A stretch of 64,000 nucleotides of DNA from the NCBI RefSeq assembly GCF_016591715.1, contig NZ_AP024109.1, forward strand, positions 3,844,001-3,908,000, read 5' to 3'. The notes under the pieces are model-generated. The model made no database searches, had not been told where the DNA came from, and saw only the letters and a list, made by a program, of their open reading frames with translations. Positions 25,562-61,314 of the stretch are shown piece by piece. The stretch comes from Mesorhizobium sp. J8 (GTDB lineage Bacteria > Pseudomonadota > Alphaproteobacteria > Rhizobiales > Rhizobiaceae). The translations under genes and the position numbers were made by a program. How positions within the stretch are numbered: position 1 is the first letter of the stretch; each line of letters opens with the position of its first letter.

Positions 25562-25791
25562 AATGCGCCCCGCGCTGGTTCTGCTTCGAACACAGAGCGA
25601 GGGTGAAGCCGATCGCCCACATCGCCGAGCTGGTCGGTTATTGATTGCTTGCCAATTTCGGACGTCAATTCAAGGCGTTGAAGGGGCTCACGCCGCGCGA
25701 ATATTGTGGCAGTTTGCCAACTGAGACCTTTCTCGGAACCATTCCAACCTTGTCCCGTTCAGCCCTCGGGCGAAAAACGGGAGAGACGAGA
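25562..25791 (+). pseudogene. AraC-family regulator remnant (C-terminal HTH only)
   Basis: The frame through 25564-25790 reads VKPIAHIAELVGY, then a TGA stop, then LLANFGRQFKALKGLTPREY. This is the second helix-turn-helix of AraC/GlxA-type regulators, with a nonsense codon in the middle and no N-terminal part. It is a decayed fragment with no start codon and no full domain. The end overlaps the promoter of the 67-aa gene downstream. Confidence 0.6.
25735..25759 (+). promoter_or_regulatory. EcfG/RpoE2-type general-stress promoter for the 67-aa gene
   Basis: GGAAC (25735-25739) and GTT (25757-25759) are separated by 17 nt, matching the general-stress sigma consensus of alphaproteobacteria. The ATG of the downstream gene is 31 nt further on. 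Confidence 0.55.
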
Positions 25792-25994
25792 TGGCTGTGA
25801 GATGCCGAATTTCCATCGATGATGAGAGGGATGTCGACGAGCTTGCCTTCCAGGAATTGCCGCGGGTCGGCGAAAGCGTGTCGATCCCGGTCGAGGGAAC
25901 GAACAGGGACCTCCGCGTGCTCCGCGTCGTGCATATGCCCGGCAGCGAGCAAGGCGCGACGACCATGCTGGAGCTGACCAGCAGGATTCTCTAG
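25791..25994 (+). CDS. Small stress-type protein of unknown function (67 aa)
   Basis: A 67-residue acidic soluble protein starting MAVRCRISIDDERD. No membrane segment or known motif is seen. The predicted fold is mostly strands (RCRISID, SVSIPVEG, RVLRVVHM, TMLELTS), so a small beta-barrel or OB-like domain is possible. GGAGAG precedes the ATG, and an EcfG-type promoter lies 31 nt upstream, which supports its being a real gene of the general stress response. Its TAG stop lies directly before a family A repeat. Confidence 0.6.
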   Translation: MAVRCRISIDDERDVDELAFQELPRVGESVSIPVEGTNRDLRVLRVVHMPGSEQGATTMLELTSRIL

Positions 25995-56957: not shown

Positions 56958-57043
56958 GCGGACGTGGCGGAATTGGTAGACGCAAGGGACTTAAAATCCC
57001 TCGATCACTGATCGTACGGGTTCGATTCCCGTCGTCCGCACCA
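56958..57043 (+). tRNA. tRNA-Leu (anticodon UAA)
   Basis: An 86-nt class II cloverleaf with acceptor stem GCGGACG/CGTCCGC, discriminator A, encoded CCA and a long variable arm (tcgatcactgatcgta). The anticodon loop CTTAAAA gives TAA. Its 3' half, from 56990, is copied in decayed form at 59487-59538, as expected when a mobile element uses a tRNA as attachment site. Confidence 0.97.
56990..57043 (+). repeat. Attachment-type 3' half of tRNA-Leu (left copy)
   Basis: From cttaaaatccctcgatcact to the CCA, this 54-nt segment matches 59487-59538 with two substitutions and two single-base deletions in the right copy. The left copy is the functional tRNA end. Such tRNA 3' ends are usual integration sites of genomic islands. 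Confidence 0.7.
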
Positions 57044-57276
57044 CATTTGCATTCTATCGTTGCGGTAGGCTATGCCAAAAAGACCGGCCGCGGGTAGCCG
57101 TTTGGGTAGCCGGAACAAGAATTTGCGGGGTTGGCCACCCAAAATTCACCTCGAAGTTGCTATAAGGAAGCTGACCTGGAGAAGCAGCTAGCCGTCGCTC
57201 AGTTCGCATTGCAGGCGTACGTTGCCTGTCTGCGCACAAGGCAACCGGAACTGCAGTGACGCTCACCTCGGTTGCG

Positions 57277-57408
57277 TTAGGCCAGCCCCGTCATGCGGAT
57301 GATCCTCAAAACCCCATGGCCGATGGCAAGAACGAATTGACCATCGTCGGCGGCCAAATCCCAGCCGAAGAGTGCAGCCCAGCAAAAGAGCATCAGGGCG
57401 AAACGCAT
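57277..57408 (-). CDS. Possible small membrane protein (43 aa)
   Basis: A minus-strand gene from an ATG at 57408. The sequence starts MRFALMLFCWAALFGWDLAA and continues DDGQFVLAIGHGVLRIIRMT to GLA. It has an N-terminal membrane helix or signal and a polar centre. The composition looks like a real short protein and similar short sequences occur in rhizobial genomes (from memory), but the ribosome site is weak. Confidence 0.45.
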   Translation of the reverse strand: MRFALMLFCWAALFGWDLAADDGQFVLAIGHGVLRIIRMTGLA

Positions 57409-57649
57409 TAGAGAGTACTAATACGAATCCATTGACCAAACGTTACGGAAATGGGCTGCGCCCACTGTGTCACTTCGGGCCAAAATCCTGGCATCAGCCT
57501 TGCAAGGCGGAATAGCCGGTTTGATCCCCGGCAGCTCGTCGGGCTTGAGGCAGTCTGTTGGGGGCCTCGCCCGGCGAGTTCACTGAAATCAGTGGACAGG
57601 CATCAAAAGCTATATCTATGCGCAAATGCTAATTTAGCCTAAGCTCCTA

Positions 57650-57728
57650 GCCGACTCCCACCCTACCCGAGTCGGTTAGGCCCGGCGGTTCAACCCAACG
57701 CACCCCAACGCGGAACTGTCGGGCCGCT
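57650..57728 (+). repeat. 79-nt direct repeat, copy 1
   Basis: From gccgactccc to gggccgct, this segment nearly matches 60130-60210. It starts with a hairpin (gccgactc/gagtcggt) followed by ggcccggcggttcaacccaa and cgcaccccaacgcggaactg. The two copies are 2.48 kb apart in the same direction. Confidence 0.85.
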
Positions 57729-57973
57729 GAGGGCCGAGCCTTCAGTTTTAGGCGCCCCTCTATCACCTCGGCAGGCAGCGAAACCAGCATTAATGGTCAG
57801 GCGCAGCCGGCAGCATCCTTACGCCAACGGTCATGATCGTGAAATGCCGCACCAAGTCGCGCTCGCCGACGACATCTGCACGGATCGCAGCTTTACGCCG
57901 ATCAGGCGATTTCTTCAGGAACGCGGGCTGCGATATCGGACCAGGGAGTTTGTCACGCTCGGAGATGCGGCCG

Positions 57974-58798
57974 CTACGCTGACTTTCGTGCCGGCTTGGC
58001 CTTTGGCCGATCCTTTATGCCTTCCTTGGCCAGGCTCCTCCTCAGCACGGCAGCCAGATCCACAACGTTCTCTTTGGGTTTCGGCGCCGGCTTGGGCGGT
58101 TTCTTGCCCTTGCGCTTGGCATCGATCATGGCAATCAGCGCATCCTCGTAGGTATCTTCGAACTTGGAAGGGTCGAACTTCGTGACCTTCTTGTCGATCA
58201 GCAGCTCGGCGATTTCGAGCAAATCCTTGTCGAACTTCGGAGATGTGAATTCGCCGAAGGCGCTCTTTTCCGAAACCATCTCGTTGTGGGTGCGCAACTC
58301 CGTCAGGAGCATTCCTTTGCCGAAGGGCTGGATAATGACTTCCCGGCCGCGCTGGTACAGCACAACACAAGACCGGGCCGCGACCCTCTTCTTGGCCATG
58401 GCTTCGCGCAGCACATTGAATGCCTCGGTTGCGGCGCCATCGGCGGGAATGACGTAGTAGGGCTTTTCCAGATAGCGCGTGTCGATCTCGTCAATTGCGA
58501 CGAAGCCATCGACCTCCAGCGTATGCTGCGACGTCAGCTTGAGCTTCTTGATCTCGTCCGGCTCAATTTCGAGGAAGTCTCCCTTCTCGGCCTCGTAGCC
58601 CTTGATTTGGTCTTCCGAAGGCACGATGTCGCCGGTTCCTTCGTCGACATAGGCGCTTTTGACCGGCAGGCCGTCGCGGCGGCTCAGGATCTTGAAGTGG
58701 ACCTTGCCCGCTTCGGTCGTGGCGCCCACCAGCTTCACGCCGCAACTCACCGATCCGACCTTGAGGAAGCCCTTCCATACCGCGCGTGGCGCCGCCAT
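57974..58798 (-). CDS. ku: Ku-family DNA end-binding protein (NHEJ)
   Basis: A 274-residue bacterial Ku. It starts MAAPRAVWKGFLKVGSVSCG and has the Ku core (about 10-200), including ILSRRDGLPVKSAYVDEGTG and KPYYVIPADGAATEAFNVLR. A lysine/proline-rich C-terminal tail (KRKGKKPPKPAPKPKENVVD) would bind DNA. Bacterial Ku threads onto broken DNA ends and recruits LigD, which is not in this window. A general-stress promoter lies at 58836-58860, divergent from the 87-aa gene. Stress-dependent Ku genes are known in Sinorhizobium. Confidence 0.93.
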   Translation of the reverse strand: MAAPRAVWKGFLKVGSVSCGVKLVGATTEAGKVHFKILSRRDGLPVKSAYVDEGTGDIVPSEDQIKGYEAEKGDFLEIEPDEIKKLKLTSQHTLEVDGFVAIDEIDTRYLEKPYYVIPADGAATEAFNVLREAMAKKRVAARSCVVLYQRGREVIIQPFGKGMLLTELRTHNEMVSEKSAFGEFTSPKFDKDLLEIAELLIDKKVTKFDPSKFEDTYEDALIAMIDAKRKGKKPPKPAPKPKENVVDLAAVLRRSLAKEGIKDRPKAKPARKSA

Positions 58799-58835
58799 TT
58801 GGTCACTCGTGATTGTAAAACATCCTGACGGGGGA

Positions 58836-58860
58836 AACTTGGCCCCGCCACAATGGTTCC
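58836..58860 (-). promoter_or_regulatory. EcfG/RpoE2-type promoter of ku
   Basis: On the minus strand GGAAC (58860-58856), 17 nt and GTT (58838-58836) match the general-stress sigma consensus. Transcription would start about 30 nt before the ku ATG. Confidence 0.6.
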
Positions 58861-58930
58861 GCGCTGGGGCATGAGGTCCAGGTGCGGCGATCTGATGGGC
58901 GATCCCTTTAGCCGAGGGTTCTACCCGGCT

Positions 58931-58955
58931 GGAACAACACGACGCATCCGCAGTT
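58931..58955 (+). promoter_or_regulatory. EcfG/RpoE2-type promoter of the 87-aa gene
   Basis: GGAAC (58931-58935), 17 nt and GTT (58953-58955). It is 46 nt before the ATG at 59001 and faces away from the ku promoter. Confidence 0.6.
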
Positions 58956-59000
58956 CGGACGTGGAGAGATGGGGATTTCAAACGACAACAAGGAAATGCA

Positions 59001-59264
59001 ATGGCCAATGACATGTCTCGCAAGCAGGAGCGCAAAGGCACATCGCGGATCGTTGGTTGGGGAGCCGCGCTGGCGTTGGTTCTGTTCTTGTGCTTGCTGG
59101 CCTTCTTCCTGTTCGCCCCTTCTCGGCAGATGTTGGATGTAAAGCGCGCGCCGGAACAGAATGTGGGGCAAGGCAACGCCCCGGCGGATAGCCGGCCATC
59201 TCCTGGCGTTCAAAAAGACTCGTCTGGGAACTCCAAGCTGCCCACCCAACAGGGCGGCGGGTGA
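59001..59264 (+). CDS. Small single-pass membrane protein (87 aa)
   Basis: Starts MANDMSRKQERKGTSRIVGW with a basic cytoplasmic end, then one membrane segment (AALALVLFLCLLAFFLFAPS) and a polar Pro/Gln/Gly-rich tail (PSPGVQKDSSGNSKLPTQQG). The AAGGAAA before the ATG is a good ribosome site. Its stress-type promoter and its place opposite ku suggest a role in the general stress response. The function is unknown. A stem-loop with T run at 59297-59317 follows. Confidence 0.65.
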   Translation: MANDMSRKQERKGTSRIVGWGAALALVLFLCLLAFFLFAPSRQMLDVKRAPEQNVGQGNAPADSRPSPGVQKDSSGNSKLPTQQGGG

Positions 59265-59289
59265 CGAGACGCGAGGCGCAACGAGCTCT

Positions 59290-59314
59290 GGAACATCCCG
59301 GTAATGCCGGGGTT
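59290..59314 (+). promoter_or_regulatory. EcfG/RpoE2-type promoter of the DUF3606 remnant
   Basis: GGAAC (59290-59294), 17 nt and GTT (59312-59314). The spacer itself contains the stem cccgg/ccggg and the -10 overlaps the T run, so the same bases could also read as a terminator for the 87-aa gene. Confidence 0.5.
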
Positions 59315-59317
59315 TTT
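59297..59317 (+). terminator. Possible terminator of the 87-aa gene
   Basis: A 5-bp GC stem (cccgg, 59297-59301; ccggg, 59307-59311) is followed by gttttt. The stem is short. The overlap with a promoter-like motif leaves the role open. Confidence 0.4.
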
Positions 59318-59340
59318 GCCCCGCAAGGGGAACAAACATC

Positions 59341-59508
59341 ATAGACAACAAGAACAAGCGAGACTTTCGCGATCGAGATCGGGTGTCGGCCGACGAAGAC
59401 TACGAAGTGGAGTATTTCGCAGGGAAGATCGGCCTGATCGTCCACCAGGTGCGCGAGGGTAGCCGCGACGTGTCTACGCTTGTCACCTTAAAATCCCTCG
59501 ATCTCTGA
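59341..59508 (+). pseudogene. DUF3606-family gene, start codon lost and 3' end replaced
   Basis: The frame reads DNKNKRDFRDRDRVSADEDY, EVEYFAGKIGLIVHQVREGS and RDVSTLV, a clear DUF3606 pattern. The codon where ATG is expected is ATA (59341), with AAGGGG upstream. The final codons (TLKSLDL, then TGA at 59506) are encoded by the tRNA-Leu copy that begins at 59487, so the natural end has been replaced. It could still be translated weakly from a rare start. Confidence 0.65.
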
Positions 59509-59538
59509 TCGTACGGTTCGATTCCGTCGTCGGCACCA
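59487..59538 (+). repeat. Decayed copy of the tRNA-Leu 3' half (right attachment scar)
   Basis: The segment cttaaaatccctcgatctct followed by gatcgtacggttcgattccg to acca copies 56990-57043. It has a->t and c->g substitutions and lost one g and one c from homopolymers. It has no 5' half, so it cannot be a tRNA. Confidence 0.8.
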
Positions 59539-59604
59539 TATTGTTCCGCAACCTTTTTCCGGGAAGCACGTTGCAACCAGTCAGCTGTACGGGCGGGAGA
59601 GTTC

Positions 59605-59716
59605 CATGGGCAGAATCGGCAACGGCGGGACTGGTTTCGAAGCTTTCATGATCTTCATCATCGGCCTTGCAGCGATAGGCGCCGGCATATCCATCTACTT
59701 CACCGGCATGAATTGA
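59605..59716 (+). pseudogene. Possible small membrane protein gene with a frameshift
   Basis: An ATG at 59605 with GGGAG upstream encodes MGRIGNGGTGFE. One extra A in the run gaaag then breaks a frame that continues as AFMIFIIGLAAIGAGISIYF and TGMN before a TGA at 59714. Removing one base gives a 36-residue single-pass peptide. The inner ATG at 59655 could also start a 22-residue peptide. Weakly supported. Confidence 0.3.
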
Positions 59717-59753
59717 TCGCAAGCAATCCGAGCCATCCAGCCTGGTAGCGATA

Positions 59754-59993
59754 TTATTCACCATTGGTCTTTCGCCTTACATATGCCGGCAGATTTGGTG
59801 CGGCAGGGGGATGCAGGTGCGCATCGAAGATCGCGAGTTTGAGCCCGTATGTCAGGCGGGTTTGCGTGTTGCAGTTGTCACAGATGAAGACTTTGGAGCT
59901 TTTGAACCACGATCCCTTTCGGACCACCGCTTTTCCGCACTCGGGGCAATGAAAGGTAATATCGGAATCGTACAGATCTCGTGAAAGGATCAT
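59754..59993 (-). CDS. Small zinc-ribbon protein (79 aa)
   Basis: Starts MILSRDLYDSDITFHCPECG, with GGAGG seven nucleotides upstream of the ATG at 59993. Two cysteine pairs, HCPECGK and ICDNCNT (about 16-19 and 37-40), form a zinc ribbon. A basic linker (VVRKGSWFKSSKVF) lies between. Short ribbon proteins of this kind are common in rhizobia; the function is unknown. It lies just outside the islet boundary. Confidence 0.72.
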   Translation of the reverse strand: MILSRDLYDSDITFHCPECGKAVVRKGSWFKSSKVFICDNCNTQTRLTYGLKLAIFDAHLHPPAAPNLPAYVRRKTNGE

Positions 59994-60129
59994 CGCCTCG
60001 CCTCCGTCGCGGAGGTGGCGAGGCAAGATCTATGCTGAGCAGGATGTGCCAGACTGACACACTACGCAACCGGTGGAATGTAACCAACCGTGATCTTCAT
60101 GCAGCCTTGCTAATGTAACCTCCGTATCG

Positions 60130-60210
60130 GCCGACTCCCAACCCCGAGTCGGCTAGGCCCGGCGGTTCAACCCAACGCACCCCAACAGAGCGCGGAACTG
60201 TCGGGCCGCT
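60130..60210 (+). repeat. 81-nt direct repeat, copy 2
   Basis: Matches 57650-57728 from gccgactccc to gggccgct with a shorter hairpin loop (aaccc) and a 4-nt insertion (agag) before cgcggaactg. It lies 50 nt upstream of the gene at 60260. Confidence 0.85.
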
Positions 60211-60259
60211 TATCGGCAAGGCGACACCGTAGCCGCTGCTATTTGCACAGGGAGTAACA

Positions 60260-60472
60260 ATGGCCCAGACGATCCGGCTCGCCATCTTTGCGGTTTCGGC
60301 TGCTGTCGCCGGCTTGGCCTTTTTCGCCTTGCATTCCTTCTGGACGTGGGCCGCGCCGCTCCTGATCATATTCGTCGGCTCCATGCTTGCCGAACATGCT
60401 TTCAACCGGCTGGCCTCGAACGAAGAAAAGCAGCGCGACCTGGAAGATCGCGTGCGCAATCCACCGATGTAG
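60260..60472 (+). CDS. Small membrane protein (70 aa)
   Basis: Two hydrophobic segments (IRLAIFAVSAAVAGLAFFAL and WAAPLLIIFVGSMLAEHAF) are followed by a charged tail, ASNEEKQRDLEDRVRNPP. GGGAG precedes the ATG. No family is recognised. The 263 nt after it contain no supported gene. Confidence 0.62.
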   Translation: MAQTIRLAIFAVSAAVAGLAFFALHSFWTWAAPLLIIFVGSMLAEHAFNRLASNEEKQRDLEDRVRNPPM

Positions 60473-60735
60473 GCAGCAATGGACGCCTTACCCCTTGCGC
60501 TACCCAGGTGTCGCGCGTGATTGGTGAATTGCAGGTTACGGTCATCGCGGCCGGCGTCACGGCACTCATGGCAATAGATGACGCTGATAAGGCCCCAATG
60601 CGTGCAGGCCACGCAGGTTCTTGTTTCGCCGTGTCATTCTGAAGGCGGCTCGACAGCCGTCCTGGCCGGAATGCGCGTAACGGGCCTAACTGCGAGTGCG
60701 GGCGCCGTTCTCGACCACCATCAGCGATGTGCAGC

Positions 60736-61314
60736 TCAAGCCGTGATCGGGTTGAGCTTCAAGTGCTGGATCAGGATGATCGTCTTGGCGTCGACGATGC
60801 GGCCGTCGGCGATGCCGGCCAGCGCCTCGTCCAGCGGCATTTCCAGAACCTCGATGTCCTCGCCTTCCTCCGGCGAGCCGCCGCCGTCGGAGATACGGTC
60901 GGCCGGCGAGTAGCGTGCGGTGAAGAACCAGAGCCGCTCCGTCACGCTGCCCGGGCTCATGAACGGCGCAAACAGCCGCTCGACATCCTTCAAATGGTAG
61001 CCCAGTTCCTCTTCCGCTTCCTTGCGGATGGCGGTTTCGGGGTCGTTTTCGTCCAGCAGGCCGGCGCAGGCCTCGATCAGCGGCTCGCGATGGCCTACGG
61101 CGTAGGCCGGGAAACGGAACTGCCGCACGAGCAGCACGGTGGAGCGCTGCGGGTCGAAGGGCAGGATCACCGCGCCGTCGCCGCGATCATAGGTCTGGCG
61201 GGTCTGCGTCTCCCATCGCCCGTCGCGGCGGCGATAGTCGAGCACCGTCTTCTTCAGCACCGCCCAGTCGTCCGAAAGGATCTCCTCCGAGCGGATGCGA
61301 ATACGATCTTCCAT
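60736..61314 (-). CDS. NUDIX hydrolase, NudK/ADP-sugar pyrophosphatase-like
   Basis: A 192-residue NUDIX enzyme. The ATG at 61314 has GGAGG five nucleotides upstream and gives the length usual for NudK. An upstream ATG at 61401 is rejected. The NUDIX box is GLLDENDPETAIRKEAEEEL followed by GY (about 98-119), with the metal glutamates in place. The set of features matches GDP-mannose/ADP-sugar pyrophosphatases, which cleave nucleotide-sugar diphosphates. It is divergent from the OYE gene. Confidence 0.88.
   Translation of the reverse strand: MEDRIRIRSEEILSDDWAVLKKTVLDYRRRDGRWETQTRQTYDRGDGAVILPFDPQRSTVLLVRQFRFPAYAVGHREPLIEACAGLLDENDPETAIRKEAEEELGYHLKDVERLFAPFMSPGSVTERLWFFTARYSPADRISDGGGSPEEGEDIEVLEMPLDEALAGIADGRIVDAKTIILIQHLKLNPITA

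Follow-up and report, generated by a model that had tools for sequence, protein, structure and literature searches.

Putative EcfG-type promoters of an accessory ku gene and its neighbours on a tRNA-Leu islet in Mesorhizobium sp. J8

Promoter comparison indicates that an accessory ku gene and the divergent gene of an 87-aa putative membrane protein, both found in the window (the whole stretch of 64,000 nucleotides analysed here), are very probably targets of the sigma factor EcfG, because the promoter sites are kept in relatives of these genes and permuted motifs are rare in the same positions. The initial annotation had placed GGAAC-N17-GTT before ku, before the 87-aa gene and before a DUF3606 remnant, and all three sites are present with exact coordinates (Table 1). 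The promoter form met at the three sites is a GGAAC -35 element and an NGTT -10 element with a spacing of N16. Their -10 boxes read AGTT, AGTT and GGTT, respectively, the commonest form being CGTT.

Table 1. Features of the islet and of its insertion point, in window coordinates.
Feature	Coordinates	Strand	Remarks
tRNA-Leu (taa), islet insertion point	56958..57043	+	ARAGORN
Inserted islet, 3,692 bp	57044..60735	.	GC 0.582 vs 0.630 for the window
ku, 274 aa, intact	57974..58798	-	TIGR02772 Ku_bact 245.7 bits; PF02735 117.9 bits
Putative EcfG-type promoter of ku	58836..58860	-	37 nt 5' of ku ATG (58798)
Putative EcfG-type promoter of 87-aa gene	58931..58955	+	45 nt 5' of ATG (59001)
87-aa protein gene	59001..59264	+	One membrane span by sequence reading; tail KR(A/T)PEQN..GNAP..PSPGV conserved
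Probable relic EcfG-type promoter of DUF3606 remnant	59290..59314	+	Compared with two DUF3606 promoter regions of the same genome
DUF3606 remnant	59338..59486	+	Lacks a usable start codon; tRNA fragment in place of its 3' part
Decayed copy of tRNA-Leu 3' part, att-like scar	59487..59540	+	Direct repeat D3 covers 59487-59516; rest by eye

Promoter sites of ku and the 87-aa gene in relatives

The ku product lies well above the curated TIGR02772 cut-off (245.7 bits against 150, residues 5-256) and has sequence matches among bacterial Ku proteins with known structures (9vnq, E = 4.9e-24). A protein search of named genomes returned 64 ku loci, mostly from Mesorhizobium, and 62 of these were measured after two partial matches (L092 and L097) had been left out. 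In all family comparisons a site was defined as GGAAC-N18/19-TT lying 15-60 nt before the start. Such a site was found in 53 of the 62 ku relatives, mostly at 23-37 nt, and was absent in the other 9; its ending was GTT in 52/62. Relatedness was handled in these counts only by the removal of similar upstreams, after which 43 of 52 relatives were found to have the site, against a mean of 1.17 of 52 for 29 permuted motifs (the permuted means ranged from 0.3 to 1.2 per family). The highest permuted counts for ku, those of CGGAA (25/62) and GAACG (11/62), both come from one-base shifts of the motif. Beside Mesorhizobium orthologues, the ku relatives with a site include members of Rhizobium, Ensifer and Sinorhizobium (L090, L093-L095).

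Among 17 close ku relatives, picked for carrying GGAACC, the mean majority reached 0.88 in the promoter, compared with 0.47 in the 50 nt preceding the -35 element and 0.76 beyond the promoter. Because the upstream similarity among these 17 sets in no more than a few bases from the -35 element, the ku gene and its promoter appear to move as one unit. The ku promoter takes the form of an inverted repeat, GGAAC-N17/18-GTTCC, in 17 of the 64 ku loci (for instance, L036-L040), so that either strand presents an EcfG-type site. A bidirectional palindromic ku promoter was considered and set aside as probably incidental, as the window copy is without the palindrome and a common divergent gene was not noticed.

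The regulator that would read these sites is encoded in the same genome (6.69 Mb, a single contig), where one locus holds NepR (over the cut-off), an ECF sigma factor and PhyR, with two canonical divergent EcfG-type sites before nepR-ecfG and phyR. Together with the site kept before orthologues, this complete NepR/EcfG/PhyR locus strongly supports the earlier proposal that ku is under EcfG control. Four Ku matches were found in the genome. The ku at 53.8 kb is adjoined by a full LigD at 55.4 kb and has a canonical site 42 nt upstream. Another ku, at 2.8 Mb, lies beside LigD, and no GGAAC-N18/19-TT site was found within this 3.5-kb locus. We also observed a close paralogue of the window ku (L034, C1:5068739, 5.07 Mb) that is frameshifted near its N-terminus and keeps an EcfG-type site, the palindromic GGAAC-N17-GTTCC, 31 nt upstream.

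The surroundings of ku are variable. A conserved divergent pair of ku and the 87-aa gene was rejected, the 87-aa gene adjoining ku in 0 of the 64 other ku loci, some of which had short flanks in this neighbour comparison. At L054, a 45-aa ORF with 46% identity over 41 residues to the 87-aa protein lies 3.8 kb upstream of ku. No conserved tRNA neighbourhood of ku was found either, with tRNA genes in 4/64 ku loci and tRNA-Leu(taa) in 0, and a DUF3606 gene was within reach in 3/64 other ku loci (L036, L045 and L059). A search for a ligase beside the window ku found none in the islet; in rhizobia, ku genes are known that have no ligase next to them.

The 87-aa protein has no Pfam or NCBIfam match above cut-off. 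A protein search identified 11 relatives, the named ones all from Mesorhizobium, and a translated genome search revealed more distant relatives in 58 of the 146 genus genomes searched, among them that of this strain. The site is kept before 9 of the 11 long-form relatives, at 34-52 nt, and the highest permuted count in this family (CGGAA, 5/11) again belongs to a one-base shift of the motif. Before the short-form relatives, the site was found in 6/18 and was absent in 12/18. The conservation among the long-form relatives supports a predicted EcfG-type promoter of the 87-aa gene, as had been suggested from the sequence of the window.

Alternatively, a GC-rich stretch could have produced the three matches by chance, with ku and its neighbours using other promoters. 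The initial annotation had held that three clustered sites were unlikely to be random, and window statistics give this argument less weight than it seemed to have. GGAAC-N16-18-GTT occurs 11 times in the window versus 3.6 +/- 1.9 in shuffles, and GGAAC-N17-GTT occurs 3 times in the 3.7-kb islet versus 5 times in the other 60.3 kb. Promoter-like matches, defined as GGAAC-N17/18-GTT lying 15-60 nt before an ATG ORF of >=50 aa, number 3 in the window: one before ku, one before the 87-aa gene and one at 25735. The DUF3606 site falls outside this count as it has no ATG. However, 29 permutations of GGAAC gave a mean of 1.03 such matches, one permuted motif reaching 4 and one 3, so two permuted motifs match or exceed the observed number. 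A genome-wide check of enrichment likewise gave no excess, with 136 matches to the strict form GGAAC-N16/17-CGTT versus 154 to the reversed control. On window evidence alone the three sites are not significant, and the claim for them would be weak. The sites are judged to be more than chance because they are conserved in relatives: sites at similar distance are kept in three unrelated gene families (the DUF3606 family is treated below), and similarity drops beyond the -35 element of ku. It was this conservation in three families that led us to discard chance, which we regard as very improbable.

Another reading is that the sites are EcfG-like only in appearance and are read by a different ECF sigma factor with a similar -35 element, for example one of the ECF26 type. 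The RpoE6 (ECF26) motif counts for this reading, but the ECF26 consensus is GGAATA whereas the window sites carry GGAAC, the EcfG form, and the same architecture is found before nepR-ecfG and phyR in this genome; we consider a sigma factor other than EcfG improbable. The match at 25735-25759 (+) is a separate observation: it has a canonical CGTT -10 box and lies 31 nt before a 67-aa ORF (25791-25994, +), a further candidate EcfG target.

The DUF3606 remnant and its association with end-joining genes

The DUF3606 remnant scores 24.6 bits against PF12244 when raw DNA is searched, over the cut-off of 24.3, and covers profile positions 1-37 of 54; typed with M first, the query gave 26.1 bits (E = 7.8e-6). 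The third site lies 23 nt 5' of 59338, which corresponds to the start position of orthologous DUF3606 genes, the start codon itself having been lost. In live relatives, GGAAC-N18/19-TT was found before 19 of 40 DUF3606 starts, mostly at 20-30 nt, and was absent in 21/40; 9 of these 40 starts had been chosen for their end-joining neighbours. Rows with short upstreams and window copies were excluded from this count, and permuted motifs gave a mean of 0.34 (highest, 5).

A G+C-rich hairpin followed by T is predicted in the spacer of the third site, some 30 nt past the end of the 87-aa reading frame; the site could accordingly be an intrinsic terminator of the 87-aa gene in which the motif match is incidental. 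Against this, the third site stands 23 nt before the orthologous start just as in the live relatives that have a site, and a DUF3606 copy of the same genome (L287, 4.98 Mb) has the same layout, T run included, without this hairpin; moreover, a terminator scan did not list the hairpin at the third site. We consider a mere terminator unlikely, although both roles together could be combined in one site. From these comparisons the third site probably descends from an EcfG promoter and has no working gene behind it. The earlier claim of a DUF3606 promoter thus survives in part: the site appears to be inherited and homologous to live DUF3606 promoters, but the gene is dead, lacking both its start and its 3' end.

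We also surveyed the pairing of DUF3606 with end-joining genes in 41 genomes of the genus, which gave 87 DUF3606, 111 Ku and at least 150 ligase matches. Among the matches listed, 20 of the 87 DUF3606 genes lie within 1 kb of Ku or ligase, versus a density expectation of 0.40, and 17 of these 20 pairs are divergent; the remaining 67/87 listed have no Ku or ligase neighbour. Paired DUF3606 genes occur in 14 of the 33 genomes having DUF3606, again among the matches listed and as a raw count that ignores kinship. In the control family PF12616 (DUF3775), for which 43 rows were picked by hand, 0/43 of the matches listed lie within 1 kb of Ku or ligase. Across the order, DUF3606 was found in 14/150 genomes, and a ligase match near DUF3606 in 7/28 loci; these 7 include the genome analysed here and a weak match of 39 aa.

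The ligases beside DUF3606 were found to have GGAAC-N18/19-TT at 15-60 nt in 12 of 16 measured upstreams (one locus, L262, was left out), the highest permuted count being 7. None of these 12 sites ends in GTT and 11 end in ATT, which is a weaker form of the motif. The gene order in one genome (G077) is DUF3606, ligase, ku. At another locus (L252, G111:C2:414500-418000) we observed a decayed ligase, in shifted pieces, between ku and DUF3606 (tblastn E = 1.4e-20), which suggests that a DUF3606/ligase/ku cluster has lost its ligase there.

The predicted structure of DUF3606 consists of three helices (mean pLDDT 81). A PDB search with it gave nothing at E <= 0.001, and the fold therefore does not point to a mechanism. 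As far as literature searches reach, a pairing of DUF3606 with Ku or ligase was not found in print, and this link to end joining appears to be the new part of our results. We tentatively raise the possibility that DUF3606, a three-helix protein of about 61 aa, is an unrecognised accessory factor of stress-induced end joining, expressed along with Ku or a LigD-type ligase from divergent EcfG promoters and sharing mobile islets with them. The pairing offers a concrete and testable hypothesis for the function of the DUF3606 family.

The insertion at tRNA-Leu

The initial annotation had called this region an islet, and the term is borne out in a stronger sense, as the region is an insertion at tRNA-Leu that is missing from most of the relatives compared. 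Similarity to close relatives ends at the tRNA-Leu 3' end or a few bases past it, and among the 11 best-matching relatives fetched for comparison the islet is absent in 8 (L301, L302, L304, L306, L307, L308, L310 and L311). Because these 8 relatives resume 63-96 nt after the tRNA, at window positions 60734-60736, the segment 57044-60735 is read as an insertion or, strictly, as a replacement of 63-96 nt, and no clear match to those 63-96 nt was found in the islet. Another relative (L309) resumes after 1.4 kb, and L303 and L305 do not resume within 1.5 kb. A reading of the right flank from 59541 onwards as old chromosome was rejected, since the edge is at 60735.

The tRNA copy at 59487-59540, which truncates DUF3606, is most simply explained as an old attachment scar. 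This tRNA-Leu 3' fragment is found within the islet, 1.2 kb short of the right edge, and two successive events may therefore have built the islet. Split matches at the anticodon region of this tRNA in other genomes, for instance G116, G008 and G089, suggest that it is often used as an insertion point. An intergenic repeat, which recurs in many genomes of the genus, flanks the islet cargo in two copies (57585-57736 and 60065-60211). The islet also contains a 90-aa zinc-ribbon-like ORF (59754-60026, -) whose best 25 Pfam matches are all below cut-off.

Proposed mechanism and comparison with known systems

In the mechanism that we propose, a small cargo islet would have entered at tRNA-Leu(taa), bringing in three genes, the accessory ku, the gene of the small membrane protein and a DUF3606 gene that is now broken, each from a family that is separately a probable EcfG target. 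Stress would lead PhyR to release EcfG from NepR; polymerase carrying EcfG would then transcribe ku to the left and the 87-aa gene to the right, starting from two distinct sites 70 bp apart. This additional Ku would help a ligase encoded elsewhere, the genome having two ku-ligD loci, and broken ends would be joined in non-growing cells. The DUF3606 remnant would be the relic of a recurrent divergent pair of an end-joining gene and DUF3606, each often with an EcfG-like site. We infer the EcfG dependence, the stress induction and the repair role of the islet Ku copy, as well as any function of the 87-aa protein and of DUF3606. In Sinorhizobium meliloti, end joining is reportedly RpoE2-dependent, a finding attributed to Dupuy and colleagues in 2019.

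These data suggest that in Mesorhizobium an end-joining gene brings its stress control along when it moves. Since ku brings an EcfG-type promoter into differing surroundings, accessory repair genes gained by transfer would join the stress response immediately. A link between end joining and the acquisition of foreign DNA is stated in the title that PMC10932983 cites for Dupuy et al. 2019; islets of this kind could therefore act back on the uptake of genes during stress.

Several features of the islet are reminiscent of known systems. Like genomic islands at tRNA genes, it is inserted at a tRNA 3' end, has a tRNA 3' fragment beyond its cargo and is matched by insert-free relatives. It differs from them in that Pfam searches of four and then eight further ORFs of 57044-60735, together with the DUF3606 remnant, found no integrase, and in the position of the tRNA fragment inside the right edge, and at only 3.7 kb it is taken to be a remnant. 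With the stress-inducible end joining of S. meliloti (Dupuy et al. 2019, cited in PMC10932983) it would share stress-controlled end joining, but the ku copy and its neighbourhood are other ones, and a DUF3606 link was not found in the available part of PMC10932983.

A further likeness is to the EcfG/RpoE2 regulon of alphaproteobacteria, with which the islet and its genome share the promoter form, the distance to the start, NepR-EcfG-PhyR and ku or ku-ligD as targets, judging by the available parts of two regulon studies (PMC6599016, PMC7083833). In these parts, Sphingomonas melonis is described as having the motif GGAAC-N17-20-GTT and an EcfG-dependent Ku gene whose site lies 30 nt upstream and ends in ATT (PMC6599016), and Sphingopyxis granuli as having ku-ligD in its EcfG regulon and 14 different -10 boxes (PMC7083833); the Rhizobium etli motif is given as GGAAC-N16-CGTT in the part of PMC3892343 available. 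Because EcfG-dependent ku and ku-ligD are in print, EcfG control of ku is already known, and the islet is a new instance of it. It differs from the regulons described in that its ku is an extra copy without a ligase, borne on an islet at a tRNA gene together with two small EcfG-type genes, and in its -10 boxes, AGTT and GGTT.
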